From NCBI GenBank assembly GCA_003647765.1, contig QMNM01000054.1, forward strand, positions 1-8,007: a stretch of 8,007 bases of DNA, given 5' to 3'. Below, piece after piece: positions 162-457 of this stretch. The translations under genes were made by a program, and so were the position numbers. The notes beneath the pieces were generated by a model. That model saw only the letters and a program-made list of their open reading frames with translations, did no database searches and was not told the origin of the DNA. Source of the DNA: Candidatus Cloacimonadota bacterium (GTDB taxonomy: Bacteria > Cloacimonadota > Cloacimonadia > JGIOTU-2 > B8-G9). The first letter of the stretch is position 1; every line of letters starts with the position of its first letter.

Positions 162-325
162 GGTGTTGACACAGTTACAACCCAACTTGACCTAATAGTT
201 ACCCATAAATCAACTCCTATTAAAAATCAGCAATAGAAACAAACAAATTTATTTGTAAGTATACTACAAAGTTAAGTCATTAACAATCGTTTTAACGGTT
301 TTTAGATATATTAGATAAACCATTT

Positions 326-423
326 ACCCCGTTAGATATTTAGATTGAGACACTGTTTTTTTGTTAAATTTTAATTATCTAACAGGGTGAACCGCGTTAG
401 ATAAAAGGACTATCTAATGGGGT
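326..423. repeat. Four 13-mers ACCCCGTTAGATA in alternating orientation
   Basis: Copies lie at 326-338 (+, ACCCCGTTAGATA), 376-388 (-, ACCCTGTTAGATA), 391-403 (+, ACCGCGTTAGATA) and 411-423 (-, ACCCCATTAGATA). Each differs from the consensus by at most one base, and orientation strictly alternates. Copies 2 and 3 can fold on each other around a 2-base gap, and copies 3 and 4 around a 7-base loop. Copies 1 and 4 form an outer inverted repeat that extends outward through AACCATT. Two further TTAGATA heptamers precede at 302-308 and 311-317. It could be a dispersed palindromic repeat or a cluster of protein-binding sites. Confidence 0.8.
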
Positions 424-457
424 AAAAATGGTTAAAGTATTGCGGTTTAATTTATAT

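Follow-up and report, generated by a model that had tools for sequence, protein, structure and literature searches.

The window, an 8,007-nt stretch of Candidatus Cloacimonadota DNA, carries coaX, which encodes a type III pantothenate kinase, and directly 3′ of it the gene for SprA, the outer-membrane translocon of T9SS (TIGR04189; 1518-7595). The two genes overlap if the listed TTG start is used. Positions 1-119 hold a near-perfect 28-bp (14-bp) tandem array of GTGCGTAAGGCGTAATGCGTAGGGCGTA; after it comes a simple repeat of the CACAGAGACACAGAGG type, which is found elsewhere in the genome too. A larger dispersed repeat (191-517), which also occurs at L015, L372, L369 and L368, has inverted ends and an internal GTTGTGGG hairpin, and its copy on contig C5 is devoid of the middle part. 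Inside this repeat, the 13-mer ACCCCGTTAGATA is matched with at most one mismatch at 326-338 (+), 376-388 (-), 391-403 (+) and 411-423 (-), which bears out the four alternating copies of the initial annotation; dinucleotide-preserving shuffles of the window gave 0 matches in 200/200 cases versus the 4 observed. These 13-mers are the arms of two adjoining insertion units: unit A (61 bp, 327-387), in which an inverted 12-bp arm pair encloses a 37-bp core, and unit B (31 bp, 392-422), a hairpin with the same arms and a 7-nt loop (Table 1). The flanks of both units are inexact as repeats, namely TTTA..TGAA for A and TGAA..TAAA for B. The two TTAGATA heptamers noted ahead of the copies are present (302-308 and 311-317), but they are probably chance matches in AT-rich DNA, since neither the C97 nor the C162 homologous flank has kept them.

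Table 1. Components of the palindromic block in the window
Feature	Positions	Strand	Basis
Unit A left flank TTTA, a TNNA target tetranucleotide whose final A opens 13-mer copy 1	323..326	+	TNNA flank statistics
Unit A left arm CCCCGTTAGATA, copy 1	327..338	+	sequence, 13-mer match
Unit A 37-bp core; also in contigs C97, C24, C240, C160, C106, C23	339..375	+	genome comparison
Unit A right arm TATCTAACAGGG, copy 2	376..387	-	sequence, 13-mer match
TGAA serving both as right flank of A and as left flank of B	388..391	+	sequence; most frequent right flank of this lineage
Unit B left arm CCGCGTTAGATA, copy 3	392..403	+	sequence, 13-mer match
Unit B 7-nt loop AAAGGAC; also in C97, C103, C130, C136	404..410	+	genome comparison
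Unit B right arm TATCTAATGGGG, copy 4	411..422	-	sequence, 13-mer match
Unit B right flank TAAA	423..426	+	sequence, flank statistics
A+B block; absent exactly from homologous contig C162 (CATT^AAAATGG), present in C97	325..424		locus comparison
Larger dispersed repeat hosting A+B; ends TTACCCATAAAT / ATTTATGGGTAA	191..517		repeat comparison

Both units are dispersed in the genome. A search with the 13-mer returned 22 matches at ≤1 mismatch versus 2 for the reversed control. Unit A is found at seven places (the window and about six more) in differing surroundings, together with several B units. At four of these places, in C24, C240, C160 and C106, unit A stands without B and in quite different flanks (C24/C240 and C160/C106); conversely, C103 and C136 harbor B without A. 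The copy of the larger repeat in C162 represents a near-exact empty site, reading CATT^AAAATGG where the window has CATT[TACCCC...GGGGTA]AAAATGG with 100 nt inserted.

The number of ACCCNRTTAGATA arms per genome ranges from 0 to 182 within the order, and some sister species have none. Many of the relatives' copies are located inside multicopy S23 genes (PF05635), which encode four-helix-bundle proteins, and comparison with insert-free homologous S23 genes revealed the empty sites GATTTTATTCA^TAAATT, GAACTTAA^TTTAATT and GTTTA^CCAAATG, i.e. insertion without loss. Apart from S23, we found no recurrent mobile neighbor genes. The whole S23 (23S rRNA IVP-like) genes are themselves dispersed units with common complementary flanks, CCAATATCCAACACGGAATATCC / GGATATTGGATATTCCGTGTTGG (L069, L101, L132, L175, L187 and L202), which Cloacimonadota and Marinimicrobia have in similar form. 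The S23 genes of L187 and L202 also contain a further tiny insert, 22-23 nt long and made of two hairpins (TTCCGAAGGAATGCCTGTGGCA-like); a similar one is found in L055, and such inserts lie between genes as well.

The flanks of 164 sites were compiled. TNNA was present at 158 left and 156 right flanks (~95%), and the 4-bp flanks were direct repeats at 48/164 sites versus 15 (maximum 26) in shuffles, a three-fold excess; the duplicated tetranucleotides include the rare TACA, TAGA, TGGA and TCCA. One Omnitrophota and one Patescibacteria genome together showed direct repeats at 40/58 sites. TNNA is directly duplicated in Omnitrophota, Nitrospinota, Patescibacteria, KSB1 and Proteobacteria, whereas Bacteroidota (0/32 direct), Marinimicrobia and most Cloacimonadota show the pattern TTTA..TGAA (Fisher p = 4e-13 for the lineage split). 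In the latter class, empty sites reveal that the right TRAA was brought in with the element. We read the two flank patterns as two insertion modes, and because both exist, a single simple insertion chemistry does not fit all copies.

We scanned the GTDB genomes for the exact arm pair, which was found in more than 12 phyla among the matches listed: Cloacimonadota, Bacteroidota, Omnitrophota, Stahlbacteria, Nitrospinota, Thermodesulfovibrionales, Armatimonadota, Neomarinimicrobiota, KSB1, Planctomycetes (Scalindua and Phycisphaerae), Latescibacterota, Proteobacteria and several Patescibacteria. As this set was gathered by exact arm match, arm conservation within it is partly selected. When 26 of these genomes were searched again, all 26 carried 3-266 arms versus 0-14 for the reversed control, the lowest counts (G081, G082 and G083) being close to background. 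The IMG/VR viral contigs contained no match to the arm pair. Changes in the two arms were paired 34 times versus 4 expected, giving subfamilies such as CCCCGTTGGATA, CCCCGTTAAATA and CCCCGTTAGAAA, and the cores are unrelated between families. Lengths from end to end span about 26 to >100 bp; most elements fall into a main cluster of 59-65 bp, and a second mode lies at 26-32 bp.

A number of copies lie in frame inside protein genes. In the Omnitrophota genome G063, the 53-bp CCCCGTTAGAAA unit and its 4-bp duplication add up to 57 nt (19 residues). Among the insertions into long ORFs of G063 and the Patescibacteria genome G079, 15/16 are open and a multiple of three, and 14 are read in the frame [ND]PVR..SNG, while the non-coding copies are less constrained (25/42 a multiple of three; p = 0.012). 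In Omnitrophota alone, 13/13 coding insertions are in frame, with a peptide that is mostly NPVRNT..SNGV. The host genes encode RACo, a Mur ligase, valyl-, lysyl- and alanyl-tRNA synthetases, DNA polymerase I, glycogen synthase, diaminopimelate epimerase and trigger factor, and mfd of G008, a genome of the window's order, carries a 66-nt insert in the same frame (HPVRF..LSNGV). When LysRS and DapF are compared with relatives of solved structure, the result agrees with an additional segment at the insert position; for Mfd and AlaRS, the best alignments stop short of the insert. Across housekeeping proteins, the inserts are single and 11-34 residues long. Family members of 26 nt are also in frame in DDE transposase genes (L260, 1541-1566; L265, 1375-1400) with a duplicated TTCA or TTTA.

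These results strongly argue that the 13-mers of the window are the arms of two non-autonomous, MITE-like mobile palindromes, each a 12-bp terminal inverted repeat CCCCGTTAGATA around a variable core, inserted side by side at TNNA. Unit B inserted next to the TGAA of unit A. Like MITEs, the elements are short, non-coding and AT-rich in their sites, with terminal inverted repeats around a short core, flanking direct repeats, many copies and no transposase gene; the target duplication takes the form of 4-bp TNNA in Omnitrophota, Nitrospinota and Patescibacteria and is lacking from the 32 Bacteroidota sites. Unlike MITEs, they are much shorter (61-66 bp, down to 26), no parental IS was found, and the same 12-bp ends recur across >12 phyla around unrelated cores. 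GTTAGAT/ATCTAAC could suggest an attC-like (integron) site, a reading that we set aside since the copies occur singly at dispersed places instead of in cassette arrays.

The in-frame copies recall the Rickettsia palindromic elements (RPEs), which are found in frame in genes (PMC10969869) and are CGTC-tagged (PMC3733652). In both cases, palindromes sit in frame in unrelated housekeeping genes and add a similar peptide, and no dedicated transposase is known; the conserved in-frame peptide is seen in Omnitrophota, while the copy in the window is intergenic. The family differs in its insert of 19 residues (57 nt), against about 150 bp for RPEs, and in its occurrence in Omnitrophota, Patescibacteria and Cloacimonadota, and is set apart by its ends as described (CCCCGTTAGAWA, TNNA duplication, no CGTC tag). 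PARCELs are likewise palindromic peptide-coding DNA spread horizontally among distant taxa (PMC2996958), but they consist of 25-residue units repeated in tandem within proteins that have no assigned function, in contrast to single inserts in housekeeping proteins.

The ends would be recognized by a trans-acting enzyme that carries out the insertion at TNNA. No classical transposase was found between two such arms in the loci examined, the arm positions listed for G008, G063 and G079 gave no convincing candidate for a longer transposase-bearing copy, and neither IS1380 nor Y1/RAYT genes, the enzymes compared, correlated with copy number or position. IS1380/piggyBac, whose ends and target we presumed to be alike, was rejected as the mobilizer, its transposase being absent from genomes with 266, 120 and 80 arms. 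In contrast, small GIY-YIG genes were found at six distinct loci between CCC[AC]GT-type inverted ends in conserved protein motifs. One lies between CCCCGTTAGATA arms inside a HATPase_c_4 gene (L074, 502-773), those of L120, L121, L122 and L130/L413 (L413, 2705-3000) between CCC[AC]GTGTAAT arms inside the S23 motif ANIA^EGFGR, and that of L410 (1229-1508) between CCCAGTGAAATA arms inside TST^GANY; a seventh GIY-YIG locus, L280, has another inverted repeat. In 794 kb not selected for GIY-YIG, a small sample that is partly biased by overlap with some previously seen loci, both members of this GIY-YIG group were bracketed and three distant GIY-YIG genes were unbracketed.

The small GIY-YIG genes are the best lead for the mobilizer, as candidates for a transposition that would be driven by a nuclease. 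Tentatively, and with rather low confidence, the palindromes could be the non-autonomous members of a GIY-YIG-driven transposon class. Its autonomous copy would be an ~80-codon GIY-YIG gene between CCC[AC]GT-type ends that homes into conserved protein motifs, and the ends alone would have spread across phyla as 61-66 bp units, inserting at TNNA and adding peptides to housekeeping proteins. GIY-YIG homing elements share the small GIY-YIG gene and the location in conserved motifs, here between inverted ends; the loci of the family differ in having neither an intron nor an intein, and their ends are transposon-like.

The initial annotation had also suggested a REP/BIME-like palindromic family, and this was right in kind, as the elements are dispersed mobile palindromes that form a two-unit composite. 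REP sequences are defined by a GTAG or CGTC tag at one end, and REP/BIME elements and their RAYT transposases share with the family the dispersed hairpins, two-unit composites and intergenic clusters (PMC3733652). The family has no such tag, its loop is larger, and it shows direct duplication in many lineages and no RAYT linkage. It is unlikely that the elements are of the REP type and are moved by an IS200-like tyrosine transposase (RAYT). The duplication-free insertion 3′ of TTNA in one lineage does resemble single-strand IS200/IS605 insertion, and two Y1 genes beside purE (L272 and L285) have 64-nt CCCCGTAAGATA palindromes nearby. However, the arm pair was near only two of 20 further Y1 loci, approximately the genome density, so that except at the two purE loci the palindromes flank these genes no more than expected from that density; moreover, G001 is free of elements despite its seven Y1 genes, whereas about 20 arms occur in G000 alongside a single Y1 gene. 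Y1 enzymes are not known to make direct TNNA duplications.

The copies in S23 genes raise the question of whether the inserts are removed from the RNA or bypassed in translation, like an intron or byp. Exact excision restores full S23 reading frames, and dN/dS of the second half is 0.04-0.4 among occupied copies. Nevertheless, an occupied copy has an empty one as its nearest relative (L101/L132, 97.5% identical) and other occupied copies have decayed, so that recombination and selection before insertion suffice for this ratio. In addition, units that remain open and in frame in essential genes would be needless if they were excised, and we regard such removal as very improbable.

An RNA switch or attenuator in the coaX leader, in which mutually exclusive hairpins (1-2 and 3-4 versus 2-3) would alternate, could be suspected from the strong folding of the whole region (z = -5.6) and from the 14-nt stem that copies 2 and 3 could form. 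However, the alternative pairing is energetically disfavored, since the separate hairpins reach -22.5 (copies 1-2) and -14.6 kcal/mol (copies 3-4) versus -11.5 kcal/mol for copies 2-3. Unit A occurs without B at paralogous loci, B was inserted beside A, and the homologous C162 repeat has neither unit. There is no Rfam family at gathering scores and no terminator-like site, the coaX start is 340 nt downstream, and the palindrome is absent within ~1.5 kb of seven coaX loci of relatives. We consider a switch highly improbable.

Equally slight is the chance that the four copies are bound by a DNA-binding regulator: conserved inverted 12-mers that change in pairs resemble operator half-sites, but the arm spacing varies over the whole length range of the family, the units lie in unrelated intergenic places and in frame inside unrelated genes, target duplications occur at the flanks, and empty sites exist. 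Against a regulator-binding cluster for coaX in particular stand the relatives' coaX loci, which are without the palindrome. The initial annotation had named a lack of other occurrences in the genome together with a lack of conservation upstream of coaX in relatives as grounds against its proposals; the occurrences are many, and only the conservation is lacking.

Taken together, the MITE-like palindromes in the window are an ordinary pair of selfish intergenic insertions; their neighborhood to coaX is incidental, and nothing in the analysis ties them to that gene. Since the mobile element occurs across phyla and is found in frame in essential genes in some of them, it is selfish rather than a switch for the neighboring gene, and a host function is unnecessary to explain the family. 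We found no description of the family in the open-access papers searched, and the 12-mer appeared in one unrelated paper only. Thus, these cross-phylum, MITE-like and in places RPE-like mobile palindromes are apparently new to the literature.

Most descriptions of selfish palindromes that insert peptides in frame come from Rickettsia. In the present family, more than 12 phyla share one end sequence, and in a single Omnitrophota genome the inserts affect DNA polymerase I, three tRNA synthetases, trigger factor and a Mur ligase. This allows direct tests of how tiny elements spread between distant uncultured bacteria and of how well proteins tolerate such inserts, and for the missing enzyme, the association with GIY-YIG genes provides a concrete candidate.
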